Below are positions 28,978 through 39,080 of a DNA stretch of 64,000 nt, piece by piece. Every line of letters begins with the position of its first letter. The first letter of the stretch is position 1. The notes under the pieces are model-generated. The model saw only the letters and a program-made list of their open reading frames with translations, was not told the DNA's origin and did no database searches. Position numbers and translations under genes: made by a program. The stretch lies in NCBI RefSeq assembly GCF_900129765.1, contig NZ_FQWU01000002.1, forward strand, positions 930,001 through 994,000, read 5' to 3'. This DNA is from Massilia sp. CF038 (lineage in GTDB: Bacteria; Pseudomonadota; Gammaproteobacteria; Burkholderiales; Burkholderiaceae_D).

Positions 28978-29628
28978 ATGGCGAAGGCATCAAGCAGCGT
29001 GCAGGATCGCAAGCTGAGAGAATCCGAACAGCGCCGCAAGGACATCATCAAGGTCGTCCGAAAGCTGATTAAAACGGGCGGCACGCGCGAGATGACGCTG
29101 CGCAAAGTCGCGGAACACGCGGGCTTTTCCACGACCGTGGTGTATGGCCTGTTCAAGGACAAAGCCACCCTGATCACCCAGGCCATGGACGAGGATGTCC
29201 TGGCCCTGGTCAAGGCCATGCGCGCTGCGGTCGACCCGGCCCTGTCCCCGATCGACAACATCAAGCGCGTCGGCCGCGCCTACGTCACCTTTGGTTTGCA
29301 GCACCCGGACCAGTACGCACTGGTGTTCATGGAACGGCGCCCGCACACGCCAGTGGAAAACTCCATGCTCGAGCATGGCAACCAGGTGCAGGACCCCTAC
29401 GCTTTTGGGGTACAACTGTTCGTCGAACTGGCCGCCGCCGGCCATGTGAATAAGGCCCAGATCGAAGCCATGGCCCAGATTTTCTGGGAAGGCATTCACG
29501 GCATGACCTCGCTGCGCCTGGTCTTTGGCGACAAGGAAATGTGGTTCGAACACGACGCCTTCGACGTCCACATCGACGCCCTCATGGATGTCCTGATCAC
29601 CGGCATCTTGCACCGCTTCCGCCCCTGA
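28978..29628 (+). CDS. TetR-family transcriptional regulator
   Basis: A 216-residue regulator with an N-terminal TetR helix-turn-helix at about residues 18-65 (REMTLRKVAEHAGFSTTVVYGLFKDKATLI) and an all-helical ligand domain. It lies just ahead of, and in the same direction as, the oxidase-ceramidase operon, and a perfect palindrome overlaps that operon's promoter 41 bases after its stop; it is therefore the likely repressor. No copy of the palindrome is seen before its own gene. ATG 28978 is preferred over 28969 because AGGA is nine bases upstream. Confidence 0.92.
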   Translation: MAKASSSVQDRKLRESEQRRKDIIKVVRKLIKTGGTREMTLRKVAEHAGFSTTVVYGLFKDKATLITQAMDEDVLALVKAMRAAVDPALSPIDNIKRVGRAYVTFGLQHPDQYALVFMERRPHTPVENSMLEHGNQVQDPYAFGVQLFVELAAAGHVNKAQIEAMAQIFWEGIHGMTSLRLVFGDKEMWFEHDAFDVHIDALMDVLITGILHRFRP

Positions 29629-29668
29629 GTTCCCCTTTCAAGCACCCGACCCGGCCCGCGCACGGCAG

Positions 29669-29691
29669 AAAATAAAACGTTGTTTTATTTT
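29669..29691. promoter_or_regulatory. Candidate TetR operator
   Basis: Arms AAAATAAAAC and GTTTTATTTT form a perfect 10-bp inverted repeat around GTT. The right arm overlaps the -35 hexamer of the promoter for the downstream operon, so a bound dimer would block RNA polymerase. It could also fold as a weak hairpin after the regulator gene, but lacks GC pairs. Confidence 0.75.
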
Positions 29692-29708
29692 TGATACGTC
29701 GTTATTAT
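29680..29708 (+). promoter_or_regulatory. Promoter of the oxidase-ceramidase operon
   Basis: TTGTTT (29680-29685) and TATTAT (29703-29708) are separated by exactly 17 bp, a good sigma-70 arrangement. The start of transcription would be near 29715, leaving a short leader before the first ribosome-binding site at about 29732. Confidence 0.6.
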
Positions 29709-29741
29709 CCAGCACATTGTTCTGACAATTGCGGAGGTTGG

Positions 29742-29774
29742 ATGCACACGGTTTCGGACCTGGTATCGGCATGA
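29742..29774 (+). CDS. Possible 10-residue leader peptide
   Basis: An ATG six bases after a GCGGAGG Shine-Dalgarno sequence opens a ten-codon frame (MHTVSDLVSA) whose TGA overlaps the ATG of the oxidase gene as ATGA. The oxidase ATG itself has no clear ribosome-binding site, so its translation may depend on coupling to this small frame. No attenuation features are seen; it may simply be a translational enhancer. Confidence 0.4.
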   Translation: MHTVSDLVSA

Positions 29775-31150
29775 GAACACAGCGCAGATGGTTCCTCAAA
29801 ACCGGCGCTGCCGCCCTTGCAGCGGGCCTGCTTCCGCTACGCATCGCGCCGGCGCAGGCCGCGCAAGCGAGTACTGCCACCCACTGGGAAAACTGGTCCG
29901 GCATCGTGCAGTGCAAGGCCCAGGCGCTGGCCCAGCCGGCCGATGAAGGCGCCGTTGCCACTCTGCTTGCCGGCGCCAGCGGCGCGGTGCGCTGCGTGGG
30001 CGCCGGCCACTCGTTCACGCCCCTGGTGCCAACAGACGGCACCCTCCTTTCGTTGGACCGGGTAGCCGGCCTGCTTGCGCACGACAAGGCCGCCCTGAGC
30101 GCCACCCTGCATGGCGGCACCCGGCTGGCGCAGGTGTCCGCGCAGCTCGACAGCGCGGGCCTGGCCTTGCGCAATCTGCCTGACATCAATATCCAGTCGC
30201 TGGCGGGCGCCATCAGCACTGCCACCCATGGCACCGGCGCCGAACTGCCCGCCATGCACGCCGATGTCACGGCGCTGCGCATCGTCACGCCCCAGGGCGA
30301 GCTGGTCGACTACGACCAGTTGCGCCACCCCGACCAGCTGGCGGCCGCGCGCGTGTCGCTGGGCGCGCTGGGCGTGATCACGCGGGTGACCATGAACGTG
30401 GTGCCAGCCTTTAACCTGCGCCGCAAAGTCTGGCTGGCCCCGGTCGAAGAAATGCTCGAGCGTGCCCCGGAGCTGGCACGCACCCACCGCCATTTCGAGT
30501 TCTACTATTTGCCTTTCACCGGCTATGCGGCCGCCATCACGCATATCCCCTTTGCCGGCACCGAGGTGGCCATGCCACCCTCGCAGGACGAAGACATGCT
30601 GCGCGACCTGCGTCGCCTGCGCGACTGGCTGGGCAGCTATCCGCAATTGCGCCGCTGGAGTGCGGCCAAGCTGATCGACCCCAGCCTCACCGAACACGCC
30701 ACCAACCGTTCCTGGCTGCTGCTGTCGAACACGCGCCCCACCCGCTTCAATGAAACCGAATGCCATGTCCCGCGCGACGCCGGCATTGCCTGCGTGCGCG
30801 ACGTGATCCGCACACTGGAAAAGCGCAACGAAGTATTCTTCCCCTTGGAGTTTCGCTTCGTCAAAGGCGACGATGCCTGGCTTAGCCCCTTCTACAAACG
30901 CGACAGCTGCTCGATTGCCGTCCACGCCGCGCAAGGCGAACCTTACGCTTATCTGATGTCGGAAATTGGCCCCGTGTTCCGCAAATACCAGGGCCGCCCG
31001 CACTGGGGCAAACTGCACAACTTCAGCACGGCCGAACTAGCGGCCCTGTACCCCCGCTTCAAGGACTTTCTGGAACTGCGGCGCAGCCTGGACCCGCGCG
31101 GACGCATGCTCAATCCGCATCTGCGCACCCTGTTCGGAGTGGCCACATGA
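29771..31150 (+). CDS. Tat-exported FAD-binding aldonolactone-oxidase-like oxidoreductase
   Basis: A 459-residue VAO-family flavoprotein. The N-terminus TQRRWFLKTGAAALAAGLLP is a twin-arginine signal, so the enzyme acts outside the cytoplasm. The FAD domain has RCVGAGHSFTPL (His80 is in the position where this family often links FAD covalently) and INIQSLAGAISTATHGTG; the C-terminal cap domain ends with the HWGKLHN and RRSLDPRGRMLNP signatures of D-arabinono-1,4-lactone oxidases. The natural substrate in this operon is probably a different alcohol; I propose sphingosine from context. It overlaps the next gene by ATGA. Confidence 0.88.
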   Translation: MRTQRRWFLKTGAAALAAGLLPLRIAPAQAAQASTATHWENWSGIVQCKAQALAQPADEGAVATLLAGASGAVRCVGAGHSFTPLVPTDGTLLSLDRVAGLLAHDKAALSATLHGGTRLAQVSAQLDSAGLALRNLPDINIQSLAGAISTATHGTGAELPAMHADVTALRIVTPQGELVDYDQLRHPDQLAAARVSLGALGVITRVTMNVVPAFNLRRKVWLAPVEEMLERAPELARTHRHFEFYYLPFTGYAAAITHIPFAGTEVAMPPSQDEDMLRDLRRLRDWLGSYPQLRRWSAAKLIDPSLTEHATNRSWLLLSNTRPTRFNETECHVPRDAGIACVRDVIRTLEKRNEVFFPLEFRFVKGDDAWLSPFYKRDSCSIAVHAAQGEPYAYLMSEIGPVFRKYQGRPHWGKLHNFSTAELAALYPRFKDFLELRRSLDPRGRMLNPHLRTLFGVAT

Positions 31151-32427
31151 AACGGCGCACCATGGTCGCCGCCCTTGGCGCTGGCCTGGTCGGCGCCGGC
31201 GCGCTGGCCCTGCACCCGGGCCAGCGCGGCGCCCCGCATGCGCCCTATTTCGCCCGCATGGCCGCGGCCTTGCGCGCGGCGGGCATCGCCACCCCCACCA
31301 TGGTCATCGACCGCGACGCCCTGCACAATAACGCGGCCCAGGTCACGCGCAACATCGCCGGGCGCATGCAGCTGCGCCTGGTTGCCAAGTCGCTTCCCTG
31401 CCTGCCCTTGCTGGACGACCTGGCTGCGAGCATGCGCACCGACCGGCTGATGGTGTTCAATCTGCCGTATCTGCAGCAACTGGCCGAACAGCGTCCCGCA
31501 TTCGACCTGTTACTTGGCAAACCACTCCCCGTTGCTGCGGCAGCGGCGTTCTATCAGAACCTGAAAACAGCGACCTTCAACCCGTCAACCAAACTGCAAT
31601 GGCTGATCGACGGGCCGCAACGGCTGGCCCAGTACCGCGACCTGGCACGGCAGCGCCACCAGGCCATGCGCGTCAATATCGAACTCGATGTGGGCCTGCA
31701 TCGTGGCGGCGTGGCCGACAGTTCGGCCCTGCAGCAGATGCTGGCCATCTTCAAGTCCGAGCCCTTGCTGGAATGGTCCGGCATGATGGGCTACGACGCC
31801 CACATCGCCAAGCTGCCCGACCTGCCCGGGGTGCGCAGCGGAGCCTTCGAACATGCCACCTCTGTGTACCGTGACTGGACCGCCACTGCCACGCACGCCT
31901 TGCATGCGGGCGCCACCCCGGCGGATCTGACGCTCAACGCAGGCGGCTCGCCCACCTACCGTCTGCATGACGGCAGCAAGACGCCGAACGAAGTGGCGCT
32001 CGGTTCCGCCCTGGTCAAGCCAACTGACTTCGACCTCGATTCCCTGCACGACCTGGCGCCTGCCGCATTCATCGCCACCCCCGTGATCAAGGCACCGCCA
32101 GAATTCCTGATGCCCAACGGGGTCGAGTGGCTGGGCAGTCTGGCGCGCATGTGGGATGCCAATCAGCGCCGCGTGTATTTCATCTACGGCGGCAACTGGC
32201 TGGCCAATCCGGTCTCGCCCGAAGGCCTGGCGCCAAGCGGCCTGTATGGCCCATCGTCGAACCAGCAAGCCATGCTGGGCTCCGGCGCACAGAACCTGCA
32301 GATGGATGACTTCATTTTTTTCCGGCCGCGCCAGAGCGAATCCGTACTCCAGCAGTTTGGCGACATCGTCGTCATGGAAGCAGGCCGTATTACGCAACGG
32401 TGGCCGGTTCTGCCGGCCATGCCATAG
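31147..32427 (+). CDS. Exported PLP-dependent enzyme of the alanine racemase/D-threonine aldolase fold
   Basis: A 426-residue fold-type III PLP protein. It begins with KRRTMVAALGAGLVGAGALAL, a Tat-like export signal. The PLP lysine is probably K81 in LRLVAKSLPC, preceded by TPTMVIDRDALHNNAAQV, the family's usual first block; MGYDAHIAKL and NAGGSPTY follow. D-threonine aldolases and D-serine dehydratases bind a metal through a C-terminal HxD/HxC motif, but here the equivalent stretch reads RPRQSESV, so the metal site appears lost. The exact reaction is unknown. It is coupled to the flavoprotein gene. Confidence 0.8.
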   Translation: MKRRTMVAALGAGLVGAGALALHPGQRGAPHAPYFARMAAALRAAGIATPTMVIDRDALHNNAAQVTRNIAGRMQLRLVAKSLPCLPLLDDLAASMRTDRLMVFNLPYLQQLAEQRPAFDLLLGKPLPVAAAAAFYQNLKTATFNPSTKLQWLIDGPQRLAQYRDLARQRHQAMRVNIELDVGLHRGGVADSSALQQMLAIFKSEPLLEWSGMMGYDAHIAKLPDLPGVRSGAFEHATSVYRDWTATATHALHAGATPADLTLNAGGSPTYRLHDGSKTPNEVALGSALVKPTDFDLDSLHDLAPAAFIATPVIKAPPEFLMPNGVEWLGSLARMWDANQRRVYFIYGGNWLANPVSPEGLAPSGLYGPSSNQQAMLGSGAQNLQMDDFIFFRPRQSESVLQQFGDIVVMEAGRITQRWPVLPAMP

Positions 32428-32453
32428 GGATTGAACGACGACGAGGAGACAAG

Positions 32454-32879
32454 ATGAACGCACAAGGATTGCGCAAGTTGATTTTCATTCTAGCCGCTGC
32501 TGCGGTGGCGCCGGCCATGGCCAGCCAGGACGCCGCAGCAGGACTCTGGCTCAGCGCCGACAAGGCAGCCATCATCGAATTCAAGGCCTGCGCCGACGCA
32601 CCCGGCGCCCTGTGCGGCACCATCGTCTGGGACAAGGATGCCGGCACCCCGGCCGACGCCTGCGGCGTCATGATCGCCAAACTCAAGACCTACGAAGACG
32701 AGGCCTGGCGCAACGGCTGGGTGCACGACCCGCGCACCAAAAAGAACTACAAAGGCATTGTGCGCGTCAAGGATGCCACGCTGATGGTACGGGCCTTTAT
32801 TGGCACCGAGCTGCTGGGCGAAACCGAAGTCATGACTAGGGCGAGCGCCATTCCGCCCGGCTGCAAGACCAAACAATAA
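32454..32879 (+). CDS. DUF2147 family secreted protein
   Basis: A 141-residue protein with a signal peptide (ending near APAMA) and a small beta-rich domain of the DUF2147 type: AAGLWLSADKAAIIEFKAC, LCGTIVWDKDAG, YKGIVRVKDATLMVRAFIG. Two of the cysteines (Cys in EFKAC and in LCGTI) could form a disulfide. The family's function is not known; it may bind a lipid or assist the partner enzymes. A GAGGAGA site precedes the ATG. Confidence 0.85.
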   Translation: MNAQGLRKLIFILAAAAVAPAMASQDAAAGLWLSADKAAIIEFKACADAPGALCGTIVWDKDAGTPADACGVMIAKLKTYEDEAWRNGWVHDPRTKKNYKGIVRVKDATLMVRAFIGTELLGETEVMTRASAIPPGCKTKQ

Positions 32880-32899
32880 CAACACCGCAAGGAGACCCA

Positions 32900-33805
32900 A
32901 TGAACACACGTATCGCCCACGCCATCGGCCTGGCCATCCTGGCTGGCGCCATCCACAGCGCGCAGGCGCAAAGCGACGAGCCGGCCGTACAAAGCTATTC
33001 GCTCGATATTGAAGCGAAGGTGCTGACCGACCGCAAGAACCGCGGCGTGTCGGACACCTACAACCGCCCCGGCGCCGAGCTGACCATGGAAGCGGTGCAC
33101 GAGTCGGGGCTGGTGGGCTACCTGCAGCTGGGTACCGTGCGCAAGGAGATTTTTCCGGAGACGAACGGGCTGCAGGTGACAGGCGCCGTGGGCTACCGCT
33201 GGGGCAAACCGGATGGCTGGCATTTTGGCGTGGGCGCGGCGCAGGAATGGTTCCCGGGCGCGAAGGTCAACAACGCGCCAACCGGCATTGACTGGAGCAC
33301 GGGCGAACCCACCGGGCTGACCGACACCAAGTTCGACACCACCTACGCCATTTTTGAATTTGCTTACGGCGTGGTCGAAGCGCGGTATCTGTACGTGACC
33401 AGCAAAGACCTGCGCGGCAATAACACCGCCATCATTTGCGGCTCCACGTACATGCCGGCCGTGCTGGCGGGCGGCGATCCAAGCAAGGCCATCGCCTGCT
33501 ACGAAGGCGGCTTCGAACATTCGCGCGGCTCCCAGCTGCTGGACGTGGGCGTCGAACATAAACTGACGGGACAGACCAAACTGATTGGCCACCTGGGCTT
33601 CCAGAAAATGCGGCACTTCCGCGACGGTGACCTGGTCGACTACAAATTCGGCGTGGTTCATACCCGCTGGGGCCTGGACTTTGGTGCCGAAATTGCCGGG
33701 GCCGCGCTACGCAACCGTGAACTGGCAGTGGTGCTCGACAGTGCGGGCCGCAGCAAGAAGGTCGACCGCGCCGCGCTGATCCTGTCACTTGCCAAACGTT
33801 TTTGA
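32900..33805 (+). CDS. TorF-like putative outer-membrane porin
   Basis: A 301-residue protein with a signal peptide (cut near SAQAQ) and a beta-barrel pattern ending in a C-terminal Phe (LILSLAKRF). The mature start SLDIEAKVLTDRKNRGVSDTYNRPGAELTMEA resembles the TorF family (conserved hypothetical proteins with a FRGVSxT motif). It may let the operon's substrate or product cross the outer membrane, or bind it. An AAGGAGA site precedes the ATG. Confidence 0.72.
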   Translation: MNTRIAHAIGLAILAGAIHSAQAQSDEPAVQSYSLDIEAKVLTDRKNRGVSDTYNRPGAELTMEAVHESGLVGYLQLGTVRKEIFPETNGLQVTGAVGYRWGKPDGWHFGVGAAQEWFPGAKVNNAPTGIDWSTGEPTGLTDTKFDTTYAIFEFAYGVVEARYLYVTSKDLRGNNTAIICGSTYMPAVLAGGDPSKAIACYEGGFEHSRGSQLLDVGVEHKLTGQTKLIGHLGFQKMRHFRDGDLVDYKFGVVHTRWGLDFGAEIAGAALRNRELAVVLDSAGRSKKVDRAALILSLAKRF

Positions 33806-33834
33806 GGGCACTACACACATAAAAGGAGACTGCA

Positions 33835-35844
33835 ATGACCACGCACATGCTGTTCCGACGTTTGTCCATCGCGCTTGGCGCCACCCTGATGTGCGGCGCG
33901 GCCAGCGCCGATCCTTACCTGGTAGGCCGCGGCATGGCCGACATCACGGGCGAAGCGGCGGAAGTCGGCATGATGGGTTATGCAGCCCTGTCGCAGGTCA
34001 GCGGCGGCGTTCACATGCGCCAGCGTGCGCGCGCCTTCATCGTGGTCGATCAGGCCAGCGGCAAACGCACCGTGTTTGTCAACAACGACCTGGGCATGGT
34101 GTTCCAGGGTGTGCAGCAGGAAGTCATCCGCCAGCTGCAGGCCAGGCACGGCGCCCTGTACGGCCCGGACAACGTGGTCCTCTCGGCCACCCACACCCAC
34201 AGCGGCGCGGGTGGCTTCTCGCACTACGCGCTGTACAACTTCACCACTTACGGCTTCAACAAACGCACCTTTGACGCCGCCGTCAGCGGCATTGTGCAAG
34301 CCATCGACAAGGCCCACCGCGACCTGAAACCCGGTTCGATCGCCATCGGCAAAGGCGAACTGCTGGACGCCAGCAATAACCGCTCGCTGCCGGCCTACCA
34401 GCGCAATCCCCAGGCGGAACGTGAGCGCTGGGGACGCCCGATCGATCCCGAAATGACGGTGCTGCGCTTTAAACAAGGCGCCGCCGACGTGGGCGTGATC
34501 AGCTGGTTCTCCACGCACGGCGTGTCGATGTCGCCCAACAATCACCTTCTCAGCCCGGATAACAAGGGCTATGCCGAATGGCGGTGGGAACATGAATTAA
34601 AAGGTGTGCGCTACAACGCCGACAGCGACTTTGTGGCAGCATTCGCCCAATCGAACGCGGGCGACATGACGCCCAATCTCAATCTGGATGGTACCGGCCC
34701 TACCGCCAACGAATTCGACAACACCCGCCTGATTGGTGAGCGCCAGCTGCAAAAAGCGCTGGCCATTTACAACGGCGCGCTGGAACCAATTACCGGCCCG
34801 GTGGACTACCGCCAGCGCTTCATCGATTTCTCGCGCGTGAGCGTGGCCCCGCAATTTGCCGATGGCGCCACCCGCAGCACCTGCCCCGCCGCCATCGGCA
34901 GCGCCTTCGCCGCCGGCACCGAAGATGGGCGCGGGCTGGACGGCTTCTTGGAAGGCGACCTGAAAGGCAACCCATTCTTTACTGCGCTGGGCGGCATCAT
35001 CACGCCTGCACCGCAGTGGGTGCGCGACTGCCATGGCGTCAAGCCCGTACTGCTGGCGACCGGCACCCAGCAGCCCTTCCCCTGGACACCCGATGTGCTG
35101 CCGGTATCGGTGATCCGGATTGGCCAGCTGGCCATTGTGGCCGCGCCAGGAGAATTTACCATCATGGCCGGGCGCCGCGTGCGCGACACCGTGCGCGCCG
35201 CACTGGGCGACAGCGTCAAGCACGTGGTGTTTGCCGGCTACGCCAACGCCTACTCGGGCTACGTGACCACCCCGGAAGAATACGACGCCCAGCACTACGA
35301 AGGCGCCTCCACCCACTTTGGCAAATGGACGCTGGGCGCCTACCAGCAAAGCTTCCATGAACTGGCAACAGCACTGCGCACTGGCGCACCTGCTTACGCC
35401 AGCGCACCCGTGCGCGACCTGCGCAACAACCAGCTGTCATTCCAGACTGGCGTGGTGCTCGACAATACGCCGATCTTCAAAAGCTTCGGACAGACCGTGC
35501 GTGACGCAAATGCCAGCTATGCGCGTGGTCAGCGGGTCGAGGTCGAATTCTGGACCGGGCACCCAAAGAACAACCTGCGCCAGAATGGCACTTTCCTTGA
35601 AGTGCAGCGCTGGGACGGCGGCGCCTGGCGCACGGTAGCCAACGATGGCGACTGGAGCACCATCTACCGCTGGGTGCGGGTCGACCCGGTATGGGGCACC
35701 TCGAAGGCGGCCATCTCATGGGATATCCCGACTGACGCCGCGGCTGGCCAATACCGGATCCGCCACTACGGCGACTACAAAAACGGCTGGGACGGCAGCA
35801 TTCACGGCCTGACCGGCACCAGCCGCACCTTCCAGGTCAATTAG
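33835..35844 (+). CDS. Neutral/alkaline ceramidase
   Basis: A secreted 669-residue hydrolase that splits ceramide into sphingosine and a fatty acid. The signal peptide is cut after about residue 25. The neutral ceramidase signatures are all present: VGRGMADITG at the mature N-terminus, zinc-binding SATHTHSG (His120/His122) and FSTHG (His228), the nucleophile Ser273 in AQSNAGDMTPN, and the C-terminal Ig-like domain (FVEVQRWDGG-like region to RTFQVN). The length is typical of the bacterial family. It is the last gene of the operon and overlaps the convergent gene by eight bases. Confidence 0.95.
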   Translation: MTTHMLFRRLSIALGATLMCGAASADPYLVGRGMADITGEAAEVGMMGYAALSQVSGGVHMRQRARAFIVVDQASGKRTVFVNNDLGMVFQGVQQEVIRQLQARHGALYGPDNVVLSATHTHSGAGGFSHYALYNFTTYGFNKRTFDAAVSGIVQAIDKAHRDLKPGSIAIGKGELLDASNNRSLPAYQRNPQAERERWGRPIDPEMTVLRFKQGAADVGVISWFSTHGVSMSPNNHLLSPDNKGYAEWRWEHELKGVRYNADSDFVAAFAQSNAGDMTPNLNLDGTGPTANEFDNTRLIGERQLQKALAIYNGALEPITGPVDYRQRFIDFSRVSVAPQFADGATRSTCPAAIGSAFAAGTEDGRGLDGFLEGDLKGNPFFTALGGIITPAPQWVRDCHGVKPVLLATGTQQPFPWTPDVLPVSVIRIGQLAIVAAPGEFTIMAGRRVRDTVRAALGDSVKHVVFAGYANAYSGYVTTPEEYDAQHYEGASTHFGKWTLGAYQQSFHELATALRTGAPAYASAPVRDLRNNQLSFQTGVVLDNTPIFKSFGQTVRDANASYARGQRVEVEFWTGHPKNNLRQNGTFLEVQRWDGGAWRTVANDGDWSTIYRWVRVDPVWGTSKAAISWDIPTDAAAGQYRIRHYGDYKNGWDGSIHGLTGTSRTFQVN

Positions 35845-36922
35845 CGCTGCAAGCGCCTACCTGCTTCCCGAACAGAGTGCCGAGATTAAGTTCGGCCGGG
35901 AAGCCGGACGGCGTGCGGGTCGCTGAAAAGCCTGCGCGCTGCAGTCCGGCCAGGTAGGGGTTGTTCACGTACTGCTGGCTGAAGGTGCCGGTGCCGGTGA
36001 AGTAATGCGCGAACAAATGGGCCGGATCGAGCGCGAATTCACCGCGATAGCTGGCGCCGTCGTTCGAATCATCCCAGCCCCATGGCGCATTGGCCGAATT
36101 GGTGCCGCAGGTCTTCAGACCCGAGCCGCAGTCGCCGCTGGTATTGCCTCGGAAAGTGCCCCAGTTGGCAAACGTCAGTCCTTGATTGGCTGGCTGAATC
36201 GCGTCGCTGATGGCAGCGGCAAACAGCCCGTTAGGCGCATGCATGTCCACCAGGCGGTATGGCACATTGCGGTCGTTGCCTGAAGTAGGGAATTCCGCGG
36301 CGCCCAGGGTCGGATAGTAAATCACGCCATCCTGGTTGGCCGCGCCCGTGAAGTTGCCGATGAACGGCCAGGCTTTCAAACCGTGCCCCTTCGCTTCCTG
36401 CGCCGTCTTCACGCGATTGATGCCATTGTGCGCTTCCAGCGATACCGTGCCGTCCAGGCTTTCGCTGCTGCCCTTGAAAGGGCTGCCCGGCGCCGTGTAA
36501 GAGTAAAAGTCCTTGTGGAAGACCGTGATCATGCCTTCCAGCGCGCCATAGCCCGTGCCGCTTTTACGCACTGCCATGATGGCGCCTTCGAGATCATTCT
36601 CGTGTTCCTGGTCGAAGGCAGTATCGGTCCAGTCGCGCGGGTGGTAGAAGGCGTAAGTAATGAAATAGTGGCTGCAGCTTTCGACGACCGAGTAATACAC
36701 GGTGGCTGGCCACTGCGCGCTGCCGCGATTGTCCCAGTTGTTGGACGCGTCGCGGTCGCCGTCGTAATCGTAGGCCGTAATGTACTCGGATGGGTAGTCG
36801 CTTGAGTCGGTGTCCTGATAGTGCACCGGGGCGTAGCGGAAGGCCAGTTCGGCAGGGGTGGCGGCCAGTGCGCCGGACATGCAGCCTGCGGCAACTGCCA
36901 GACAGATGATCGATTTCAGCAT
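35837..36922 (-). CDS. Secreted protein with HENDLEG motif
   Basis: I do not assign a function. The 361-residue product has a signal peptide (IICLAVAAGCMSGALA) and a globular domain beginning FRYAPVHYQDTDSSDYPSEY, with HPRDWTD and QEHENDLEGAIMAV, reminiscent of NPP1/Vps62-like folds in which an acidic/His cluster binds metal. Cysteine pairs occur in the C-terminal third (SGDCGSGLKTCG). ATG 36922 begins the signal peptide and has a GGAG site. Its end overlaps the ceramidase gene convergently. Confidence 0.7.
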   Translation of the reverse strand: MLKSIICLAVAAGCMSGALAATPAELAFRYAPVHYQDTDSSDYPSEYITAYDYDGDRDASNNWDNRGSAQWPATVYYSVVESCSHYFITYAFYHPRDWTDTAFDQEHENDLEGAIMAVRKSGTGYGALEGMITVFHKDFYSYTAPGSPFKGSSESLDGTVSLEAHNGINRVKTAQEAKGHGLKAWPFIGNFTGAANQDGVIYYPTLGAAEFPTSGNDRNVPYRLVDMHAPNGLFAAAISDAIQPANQGLTFANWGTFRGNTSGDCGSGLKTCGTNSANAPWGWDDSNDGASYRGEFALDPAHLFAHYFTGTGTFSQQYVNNPYLAGLQRAGFSATRTPSGFPAELNLGTLFGKQVGACSAN

Positions 36923-37047
36923 TGCGTCTCCTTGTTGGTAAAACAGAGGGTATGAGCCTGCGAATAAAGATAGCCCGTCGTGATGACAGGCGCATGAATT
37001 TTCTGGCAATTCAGTGCCTGGAACAATACGTGACGCATAATGCTGGA

Positions 37048-37647
37048 ATGGACCCTTCAAGCAATTCTCAGATGACGCTCAAATTACGAATTCGAGATCA
37101 AAAAAGCGCATTGACGCTTGCATTCCTGCTCGCGCTGACGCCCATTGCAAAAGCCGACTCGTGGTCCTACCCCGCGACACGCGCGGAAAAGATCTTCACG
37201 TTCGGTAAAACGAAAATCGTCATGGTCACGGACGGCACGGCAGATCGCCGCAATCCAGAATTCACCATGCAAGTGTTTAAGGATGGCGAATTGCAGGCAC
37301 AGGTAAGAAACCTGTCGTTCGAAACCGTCGCCGCCTCGCCGGATGGCCACTTGTTCGTCGGCCTGTCAAACCGAGGGATTCCGGGTTCCGCCGTCGTGGT
37401 GTTCACCGACCGGGGTGCAGTTACCATGCTGGCATCGCACCGGATCGCGCAATTTGACTACTGCGACAAAAGTGTTTCGATCGTGCGGAAGTGGTACAAC
37501 GAGGACGATCCGCAAATACGGTTTGGTGATGAAAACACCAAGGCCGGAACGTCAGGGATCACCTTGCGCGACTGCCGTGGTCAAACCGTGGATCTTTCCG
37601 ACGCTGTGCTGAAAGCTTATGCCACCGCCGAGCGCAAGCCTCGATAG
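37048..37647 (+). CDS. Exported protein of unknown function
   Basis: About 199 residues (191 if the ATG at 37072 is used; neither start has a good ribosome-binding site). A signal peptide is clear (SALTLAFLLALTPIAKA), followed by a beta-rich domain (KIFTFGKTKIVMVTDG, SPDGHLFVGLSNRG) with a possible disulfide between Cys in FDYCDKS and RDCRGQ. No family recognised. It is divergent from the HEND protein across a short gap. Confidence 0.65.
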   Translation: MDPSSNSQMTLKLRIRDQKSALTLAFLLALTPIAKADSWSYPATRAEKIFTFGKTKIVMVTDGTADRRNPEFTMQVFKDGELQAQVRNLSFETVAASPDGHLFVGLSNRGIPGSAVVVFTDRGAVTMLASHRIAQFDYCDKSVSIVRKWYNEDDPQIRFGDENTKAGTSGITLRDCRGQTVDLSDAVLKAYATAERKPR

Positions 37648-37667: not shown

Positions 37668-39080
37668 TTAAGCCTGCAGCACACGCGCCACCGAGGCAAT
37701 CGCCCGCGCCACGTCCTGCTCGCTGGTTTGCCAGTTACAAACCGATATGCGCATGCAGCGTTTGCCGCGCCAGGTCGTGTTGGTGAAATACGCTTCGCCA
37801 TCGGCCAGCACCGCCGCCGCCACCGCATCGGTCCATTTGTCGTGATCCGCTTCGTTGGCGCCGGCATGCTGGTCGATAAACCGCACCAGGCCCTGATTGA
37901 TCTGCGGCTCCCACACCATTTCCGCACCCGGTAACGCGGCGATGCCGACGGCGATGGCGCGCGCGGCGGCGCAGCAGCGCTCGACCAGCGCTTCCACGCC
38001 ACTTCGGCCAAGCTGGCGCAACGCGGCATACGCTGCTACGCCTCTGCCCCGGCGCGACCAGTCGGGATTCCAGTCCTTCGGCTCGCGTACCAGATCGTTG
38101 TGGGTCACGTAGCTTGCCTCATACGCCATCGCGCTGCGGTGGGACTGTGGATGGGCCACGAAGGCAAAGCCGCTGTCGTAGGGGACATTGAGCCATTTGT
38201 GCCCATCGGTCGCCCACGAATCGGCCTGTTCAACGCCCGCCAGCAAATGCTTGTAGCGGGCGCTTGCATTGACCCAGAGCCCGAATGCGCCGTCTACATG
38301 GACCCAGGCGCCGTATCGGTGGGCAAGAGGAATCAGGTCAGCAAACCGGTCGTATGCACCAATATTGAGGTCACCGGCCTGCAGCAGGACGATCGTTGGC
38401 AGGTCGGATTGTTCGCGCAAGGCCTGCTCCAGCGTGGCAGCTTCGATCTGACCGTTGGCGTTGGTGGGCAGGCCAAGGACCGCGCCTGTGCCCATGCCGA
38501 GCATGCGCGTCGCACGCGTGATGCTGCCGTGGTATTGGTCGCTGCTCAGCACCCGGATGCGCGGTGCCCCGAACAAGCCGTCGCGCTCCACATCCCAGCC
38601 GCGTTTGGCCAGCAAAGCATTGCGGGCTGACGCCAGCGCCGTAACGTGTGCCATCTGGCAGCCGCTGGTCACGGCAAAACTGGCGCCTTGCGGCAGGCCC
38701 AGAACGTCCTTGAGCCAGCCGCCCAGCACTTCCTCGATCACCGTCTCTGCCGGCGCGCAGGCATAGGCGGCCGCGTTCTGGTCCCACGCGGAAGTGAGCC
38801 AGTCGGCCGCGAGTGCGGCCGGCAGTGACCCGCCGATCACCCAGCCAAAGAAGCGGCCGCCGGCACTGCCGTTGATGCCACCGGCCGTGTCGCGCACCAG
38901 TTCATCGATCACGGTGTCGGCTGCCATAGGCCCCGCATTGAGCGGCTTGGCAAGGCGATCGCGCAGTGTTTCCAGGCTTGCAGTGGCCGCAACAGGCGCC
39001 GCATCCAAGGCCGCCAGATGTTCCAGGCAATGGTGCGCCGCGCGCTCCAGCGCGCGTTTATATTCGGATTCGCCTGCCAT
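37668..39080 (-). CDS. Pyridoxal-dependent group II decarboxylase
   Basis: A 470-residue fold-type I PLP enzyme related to aromatic-L-amino-acid and other group II decarboxylases. It shows SGGSEANL-like VTSGCQMAHVTAL, HVDGAFGLW, and the PLP lysine in SWATDGHKWLNVPYDSG. Substrate unknown; amino-acid decarboxylases and tyrosine decarboxylase-like proteins both fit. No signal peptide. It is convergent with the exported protein and divergent from DUF3293. Confidence 0.88.
   Translation of the reverse strand: MAGESEYKRALERAAHHCLEHLAALDAAPVAATASLETLRDRLAKPLNAGPMAADTVIDELVRDTAGGINGSAGGRFFGWVIGGSLPAALAADWLTSAWDQNAAAYACAPAETVIEEVLGGWLKDVLGLPQGASFAVTSGCQMAHVTALASARNALLAKRGWDVERDGLFGAPRIRVLSSDQYHGSITRATRMLGMGTGAVLGLPTNANGQIEAATLEQALREQSDLPTIVLLQAGDLNIGAYDRFADLIPLAHRYGAWVHVDGAFGLWVNASARYKHLLAGVEQADSWATDGHKWLNVPYDSGFAFVAHPQSHRSAMAYEASYVTHNDLVREPKDWNPDWSRRGRGVAAYAALRQLGRSGVEALVERCCAAARAIAVGIAALPGAEMVWEPQINQGLVRFIDQHAGANEADHDKWTDAVAAAVLADGEAYFTNTTWRGKRCMRISVCNWQTSEQDVARAIASVARVLQA

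Follow-up and report, generated by a model that had tools for sequence, protein, structure and literature searches.

A sph-type operon in Massilia

The closest described relative of the locus analyzed here is the sphingosine regulon of Pseudomonas aeruginosa, comprising sphA, sphBCD and cerN (PA5325, PA5328-5326 and PA0845). The parts of DiGianivittorio et al. (2025, PMC11893366) drawn on here report a role for sphB and sphC in the growth of P. aeruginosa with sphingosine and in sphingosine loss. We have found a counterpart of this system in a 64,000-nt stretch (hereafter the window; positions 930,001 to 994,000 of contig NZ_FQWU01000002.1) of the 5.66-Mb genome of Massilia sp. CF038. It is likely a TetR-controlled sph variant, contained in one operon, linked to a ceramidase and devoid of the dedicated cytochrome, that would detoxify and use sphingoid bases.

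The genes of the operon, all on the plus strand, encode a TetR regulator, a flavin adenine dinucleotide (FAD) oxidoreductase exported by twin-arginine translocation (Tat), an exported fold-III pyridoxal phosphate (PLP) enzyme, a DUF2147 protein, an outer-membrane protein and a neutral ceramidase (Table 1). A preliminary description of the window had named a TetR gene followed by five tightly packed genes and had linked them to the P. aeruginosa regulon; all six lie at the place and on the strand that it gave, and the second and third proteins match SphC and SphD. Because sphC and sphD overlap by 4 nt and the later gaps are 26, 20 and 29 nt, a single transcript from sphC through the ceramidase gene is likely. 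The interval between the TetR gene and sphC is 142 nt long and contains a palindrome. Three Massilia-type relatives (L032, L045 and L046) have the identical six-gene order, with a cytochrome gene between the TetR and flavoprotein genes; judged by this recurrence the six-gene set is conserved, not a chance string of open reading frames (ORFs). In L045 the frame of the TetR relative opens with the second Met as its first start codon, so that 28978 is a likelier TetR start than 28969.

A scan of a species-genome collection with the PLP protein gave at least 563 confirmed relatives; the best 80 were kept, and among these the closest named matches are from Massilia and Duganella. Together with 13 PLP loci of a family sample and the window, and after removal of two duplicates, they make a set of 91 distinct module loci (one family-sample genome yields an extra contig, L035, without the PLP gene). 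As the loci were picked via the PLP protein, linkage counts are independent of the choice and describe the closest relatives; the sampled stretches around the loci vary in length. The flavoprotein gene is present at 85 of the 91 loci, and in 82 of these 85 it directly adjoins sphD on the same strand. Of the 81 loci whose sequence reaches 500 bases or more upstream, 72 have a SphB-like cytochrome c gene next to sphC; four further loci are truncated there by the contig end. By this gene order, a module of sphB (cytochrome c), sphC and sphD recurs across Proteobacteria.

L173, a P. aeruginosa-group locus that we take to be the one matching the P. aeruginosa sph system, has sphD-sphC-sphB together with an AraC regulator and a Phenol_MetA_deg porin, beside a gene read as argB from its translation. 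The SphB, SphC and SphD families given for strain PAO1 in the part of PMC5150637 (2016) used here (cytochrome, ALO and alanine-racemase) match the L173 gene set; the same part reports SphR and CerN together in Collimonas. The ceramidase of the L173 genome scores 1047 bits over 473 residues against PDB 2zws. The window flavoprotein is 40% identical to SphC of L173 and the window PLP protein 46% identical to its SphD.

The window shares with the P. aeruginosa regulon the Pfam families of SphC and SphD, an exported flavoenzyme, a neutral ceramidase and a presumed outer-membrane route. Unlike in the regulon, its genes stand in one operon with an extra DUF2147 gene, a TetR gene and a palindrome take the place of the AraC-type SphR, no sphB was found in the window, and a Gcw_chp protein replaces the Phenol_MetA_deg-type SphA. 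SphA was considered as a homologue of the window porin and rejected, since the Pfam families differ. The outer-membrane partner indeed varies: Gcw_chp in the window (relatives at 13 of the 91 loci, window included), TonB-dependent receptors elsewhere (19 of 87 neighbourhoods, duplicates included, have a member of one cluster close to the PLP gene, and one member was checked with Pfam) and SphA in the P. aeruginosa-group locus. Relatives of the DUF2147 protein occur at 15 of the 91 loci, window included; for this protein the search against PHROG gave no match and the function search came back empty.

The mechanism proposed in the preliminary description, in which sphingosine is oxidized at C1 and then cleaved, is plausible and amounts to a published hypothesis derived anew. 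A search by title and beginning of the abstract, with most subscription papers and preprints outside its scope, found no TetR-controlled or ceramidase-linked sph operon in Burkholderiales. What appears new, as read from the genomes, is the one-operon form, the pairing of TetR with an operator, the loss of SphB and an altered metal-site motif; the palindrome and the missing cytochrome gene do not figure in the preliminary description. The operon is a natural simplification (one probable transcript, a linked ceramidase, no dedicated cytochrome, a bacterium outside Pseudomonas), and it makes the older hypothesis of C1 oxidation and aldolase cleavage directly testable.

Table 1. Features of the sph-type operon, in coordinates of the window
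Feature	Position	Strand	Evidence and remarks
TetR-family regulator	28978..29628 (219 aa if from 28969; 28978 likelier)	+	Pfam TetR_N, TetR_C_33
23-bp palindrome AAAATAAAAC-GTT-GTTTTATTTT	29669..29691	.	candidate TetR operator; perfect 10-nt arms
Possible promoter TTGTTT, 17 nt, TATTAT	29680..29708	+	read from sequence; overlaps palindrome; weak
10-codon ORF, apparent sphB (cytochrome c) remnant	29742..29774	+	comparison with four congeners keeping sphB there
SphC-like Tat-exported FAD oxidoreductase, VAO/ALO family	29771..31150	+	Pfam FAD_binding_4, ALO; TIGR01679 above cut-off
SphD-like exported fold-III PLP enzyme	31147..32427	+	Ala_racemase_N E 1e-14
DUF2147 protein	32454..32879	+	PF09917, E 6e-13
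Gcw_chp (TorF-like) outer-membrane protein, presumed passage route	32900..33805	+	PF09694, E 2e-6
Secreted neutral ceramidase	33835..35844	+	PF04734 E 1e-184, PF17048; PDB 2zws E 5e-205

A probable TetR-operator pair and the missing cytochrome

The palindrome AAAATAAAACGTTGTTTTATTTT occurs in a single perfect copy in the genome, the next best site having three mismatches. The flavoprotein is found in six of 17 genomes of the genus, our own included, and all six have the identical 23-bp palindrome upstream. Allowing at most one mismatch, the core AAAACNNNGTTTT lies upstream of sphB in 15 of 17 TetR-linked loci versus 2 of 55 others, in a count over the 72 loci with a cytochrome gene and enough sequence, for which the pattern was taken from the window, the window itself was excluded and TetR-linked denotes a match to the window TetR; L037 and L055 belong to one genome, which brings the first figure to 14 of 16 distinct TetR-linked loci. 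Two Ralstonia loci (L056 and L057) speak against the pairing, having a TetR relative and no operator match. Relatives of the window TetR (at least 100 bits) are present at 17 of the 91 module loci, window included. A consensus promoter scan did not list the −35/−10 pair that overlaps the palindrome.

The conserved palindrome beside the genes presumed to be controlled supports a TetR-operator pairing. When the AraC protein of L173 was used to look for SphR in the genome, six matches came up far from the operon, with 28% identity and an E-value of 1e-26 for the best of them; they look like general AraC relatives, and none is a clear ortholog. Since the operator core tracks the TetR-linked loci and no clear SphR was found, the TetR protein probably stands in for the AraC-type SphR here. 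As a repressor it would sit on the palindrome ahead of sphC and be released by a sphingoid base or a related lipid, which makes the pair a candidate sphingoid sensor.

Four of the six flavoprotein genomes of the genus keep sphB between the palindrome and sphC. The window and genome G648 (locus L224, which by its coordinates lies on the same contig as L050) have lost sphB; where that gene should begin, a short ORF starts instead, and its end overlaps sphC as ATGA. The SphB profile had no match within the window; across the genome it gave two partial matches (46% and 33%), both within a single 321-aa frame of another contig, besides four with E-values above 0.1. The 321-aa frame was judged, without a tree, not to be a SphB ortholog, as its matches are partial only. 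With no SphB found, we infer that either O2 or a general cytochrome must accept the electrons of the window SphC.

The same loss would fit an operon in decay, in which the departure of sphB broke the pathway and the remainder is a recent relic. The absence of sphB from both the window and G648 suits such a relic, and so do two stop codons in the flavoprotein frame of G648, although with a completeness rating of 48% this genome may contain sequence errors. In view of this completeness and the two stops, G648 supports the deletion of sphB and gives no support for function. In the window, on the other hand, all ORFs are open and the active-site residues of the flavoprotein are kept, the palindrome is identical to that of the congeners, and the remnant retains its start and the ATGA overlap with sphC. 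We therefore regard decay as very unlikely and a working operon without its own cytochrome as the better account.

The exported flavoenzyme and PLP enzyme

Both enzymes had been described as exported, and export signals are predicted in each. The flavoprotein ORF opens at 29729 and ends at 31150, and the ATG at 29771 yields a twin-arginine signal, RRWFLK; the PLP protein begins with KRR followed by a hydrophobic stretch. In a crude check of the first part of the proteins, RR occurred early in 83 of 85 flavoproteins and 90 of 91 PLP proteins.

The flavoprotein has the Pfam domains FAD_binding_4 (E-value 7e-21) and ALO (3e-46) and aligns with xylitol/alditol oxidase and galactono-lactone dehydrogenase. 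With alditol (xylitol) oxidase and L-galactono-lactone dehydrogenase it shares the FAD histidine, the E-x-R and HWGK motifs and a Pro at the oxygen-gatekeeper position; unlike them, SphC is exported by the Tat system, has a PLP enzyme as its partner and, in the majority of its relatives, comes with a dedicated cytochrome c. In an alignment of 87 rows, among them two duplicate genomes, the active-site residues of alditol oxidase are almost fully kept: E, R and K are each present in all 87, and the FAD-binding His in 86, with one gap. In alditol oxidases, according to the part of PMC10771423 used here, this lysine helps to deprotonate the substrate's terminal hydroxyl. Because this lysine is kept, SphC appears to be of the alditol-oxidase type and to fit a primary alcohol, for instance the one at C1 of a sphingoid base, as had been suggested. 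The stereochemical argument that came with that suggestion also holds by the naming rules: oxidation at C1 relabels C2 from S to R, which suits a D-specific enzyme downstream.

At the gatekeeper position, Ala is typical of dehydrogenases and Gly or Pro of oxidases, with exceptions (parts of PMC11505616 and PMC11099136). The window SphC has Pro. Across the 87 rows, which here count two duplicate genomes and several loci at contig edges, this residue is found in 64 rows with a cytochrome and in nine without; Ala or Ser occurs only in rows with a cytochrome (9 of 9). The gatekeeper was therefore rejected as a marker of cytochrome loss, and Pro would permit the use of O2 without proving it. The residue before the TH motif was also tried as the gatekeeper and rejected, the sequence of an A113G structure having given the right column. 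In the proposed pathway the flavoenzyme would oxidize C1 of the sphingoid base outside the cytoplasm, with O2 or a general cytochrome as the acceptor.

For the PLP enzyme, an AlphaFold model made with 36 relatives has a mean predicted local distance difference test (pLDDT) score of 90.6. D-threonine aldolases head its PDB fold matches along with hydroxyaspartate dehydratase and beta-hydroxyaspartate aldolase, and alanine racemases come after them. The likeness to D-threonine aldolase, BhcC and D-threo-3-hydroxyaspartate dehydratase comprises the fold, at template modelling (TM) scores of about 0.65-0.68 by query length; the PLP lysine K81; and Arg186 and Tyr216, which align to the Arg and Tyr of the profile. 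K81, the Schiff-base lysine, and E398 are invariant in 36 sequences, and Q396 is at least 90% conserved. The differences are that SphD is exported and that Q-S-E replaces H-C-D: in a profile alignment, Q396-S397-E398 falls on the H-C-D of aldolase-like proteins, 11 of which were aligned out of 12 weak matches from the family sample. The H and D (or C) of this motif we take to be metal ligands. PDB titles name H351A and C353A mutants of D-threo-3-hydroxyaspartate dehydratase. The D-threonine-aldolase likeness noted at first thus stands for the modelled fold and fails at the presumed metal-ligand motif. This counts against aldol cleavage and leads one to ask whether the chemistry of such a fold is feasible when Gln and Glu occupy the metal-ligand positions.

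We suppose that the exported PLP enzyme would split the oxidized product into a long-chain aldehyde and either glycine or aminoacetaldehyde. Six loci have an aldehyde dehydrogenase in the gene run of the module (L039, L068, L071 and L072 by Pfam, L040 and L041 by membership of the same cluster), and these neighbours fit an aldehyde product. The enzyme could instead be a dehydratase or racemase of this fold, which would yield ammonia and a 2-oxo fatty acid from the oxidized sphingoid acid or would do no more than epimerize it. The folds of D-threo-3-hydroxyaspartate dehydratase, D-serine dehydratase and alanine racemase match nearly as well as that of D-threonine aldolase, which favours this alternative, whereas the aldehyde dehydrogenase neighbours do not. 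The presumed His and Cys metal ligands of the dehydratases are Gln and Glu here; the argument weakens an aldolase equally. On balance we consider a dehydratase or racemase unlikely and prefer cleavage to an aldehyde. A second, divergent SphD-like gene was seen in seven genomes of the Pseudomonadaceae sample (G145, G147, G194, G215, G259, G266 and G273).

Ceramidase linkage and the presumed substrate

The ceramidase covers both of its domains in full (PF04734, 1-509 of 509; PF17048, 1-169 of 169) and keeps THTH, presumably the zinc-site histidines of neutral ceramidase; its score of 570 bits is below the NF041649 equivalog cut-off of 1200. Co-occurrence of ceramidase with the module, anticipated in the preliminary description, was examined in three samples, with Fisher tests that ignore the kinship of the genomes. 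In the family sample (145 genomes; PLP orthologs cut at an E-value of 1e-90, within a gap from 8e-96 to 1e-7, against 25 genomes with a PLP match in a tally at 1e-3), six genomes have PF04734, 13 the PLP ortholog and six both (1.5e-7). The class sample (293 genomes, PLP protein at 1e-60, at most six candidates scored per genome) gave 13 with PF04734, 12 of them over the cut-off, seven with the PLP protein and six with both (1.4e-8; 2.7e-7 with our own genome excluded). The association did not extend to Pseudomonadaceae, where among 198 genomes three have PF04734 (one weak), 52 the PLP protein and two both (P = 0.17). In locus L212 (472-3183), from another family of the class, a ceramidase gene lies between sphC and sphD on the same strand. 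Divergent ceramidases were found in L040 (29%), L212 (31%) and L213 (35%).

Apart from the Pseudomonadaceae result and the kinship of the genomes, further observations weigh against a ceramide-to-aldehyde operon of the kind proposed. A ceramidase lies within the sampled stretch at 15 of the 91 module loci, and 76 are without one; all four Pseudomonas genomes checked, out of eight Pseudomonas loci, have the module and no PF04734 (the other six genomes in that check were chosen since the locus already showed a ceramidase). These counts weaken the reading given in the preliminary description. The window ceramidase reads GDMTPN and the Pseudomonas enzyme GNLSPN; the Ser of this G-D/N-x-S-P-N motif is, we assume, catalytic. 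At its place, 14 of 17 other aligned ceramidases also have Thr, L213 has Ser and L062 Val, and L212 gave no clean alignment; the motif of L140 has Ser. The operon lacks sphB, which most relatives keep. In the parts of PMC11893366 cited here, complementation in P. aeruginosa required a plasmid that carried sphB as well as sphC, sphingosine-grown cells could do without sphD under the conditions used, and the sphingosine product was left unidentified.

These counts indicate that ceramidase is a frequent partner of the module and not an essential part of it, and the core task of the module is for this reason probably directed at free sphingoid base. It might be argued further that the module does not act on sphingosine at all, SphC oxidizing another alcohol and the sphingolipid link being indirect. 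The many loci without ceramidase, the four Pseudomonas genomes among them, lend themselves to this argument, and direct action of SphB and SphC on sphingosine is called unproven by the 2025 authors in the same parts of their paper. It sits poorly with the sphBC-dependent loss of sphingosine reported there, with the ceramidase co-occurrence, with the single operon of the window and with the ceramidase gene inside the L212 module, and we think it quite unlikely, if slightly less so than decay of the operon.

We infer the substrate and products of the operon as follows. The secreted ceramidase, whose family assignment is strong, would free a sphingoid base from ceramide; the outer-membrane protein would pass the product inward to the flavoenzyme and the PLP enzyme; and the outcome would be both detoxification and use of sphingoid bases. 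It is possible, and we put it forward tentatively, that the operon is a self-contained extracytoplasmic pathway that uses O2, with TetR as a lipid sensor distinct from SphR, a cytochrome-independent SphC and D-type aldol cleavage by SphD with Gln and Glu at the usual metal-ligand positions, leading from ceramide to glycine and a fatty aldehyde.

Some neighbouring genes may be mentioned. At two Chromobacterium loci a GH18 chitinase-like gene is directly 3′ of the module (L058, 11336-12781; L064, 10903-12732). In the window, a 407-aa protein without a Pfam or NCBIfam match at 1e-3 is encoded convergently with the ceramidase (35837-37060, minus strand), and an apparently unrelated pyridoxal-dependent decarboxylase (PF00282) is encoded at 37668-39080 on the minus strand.

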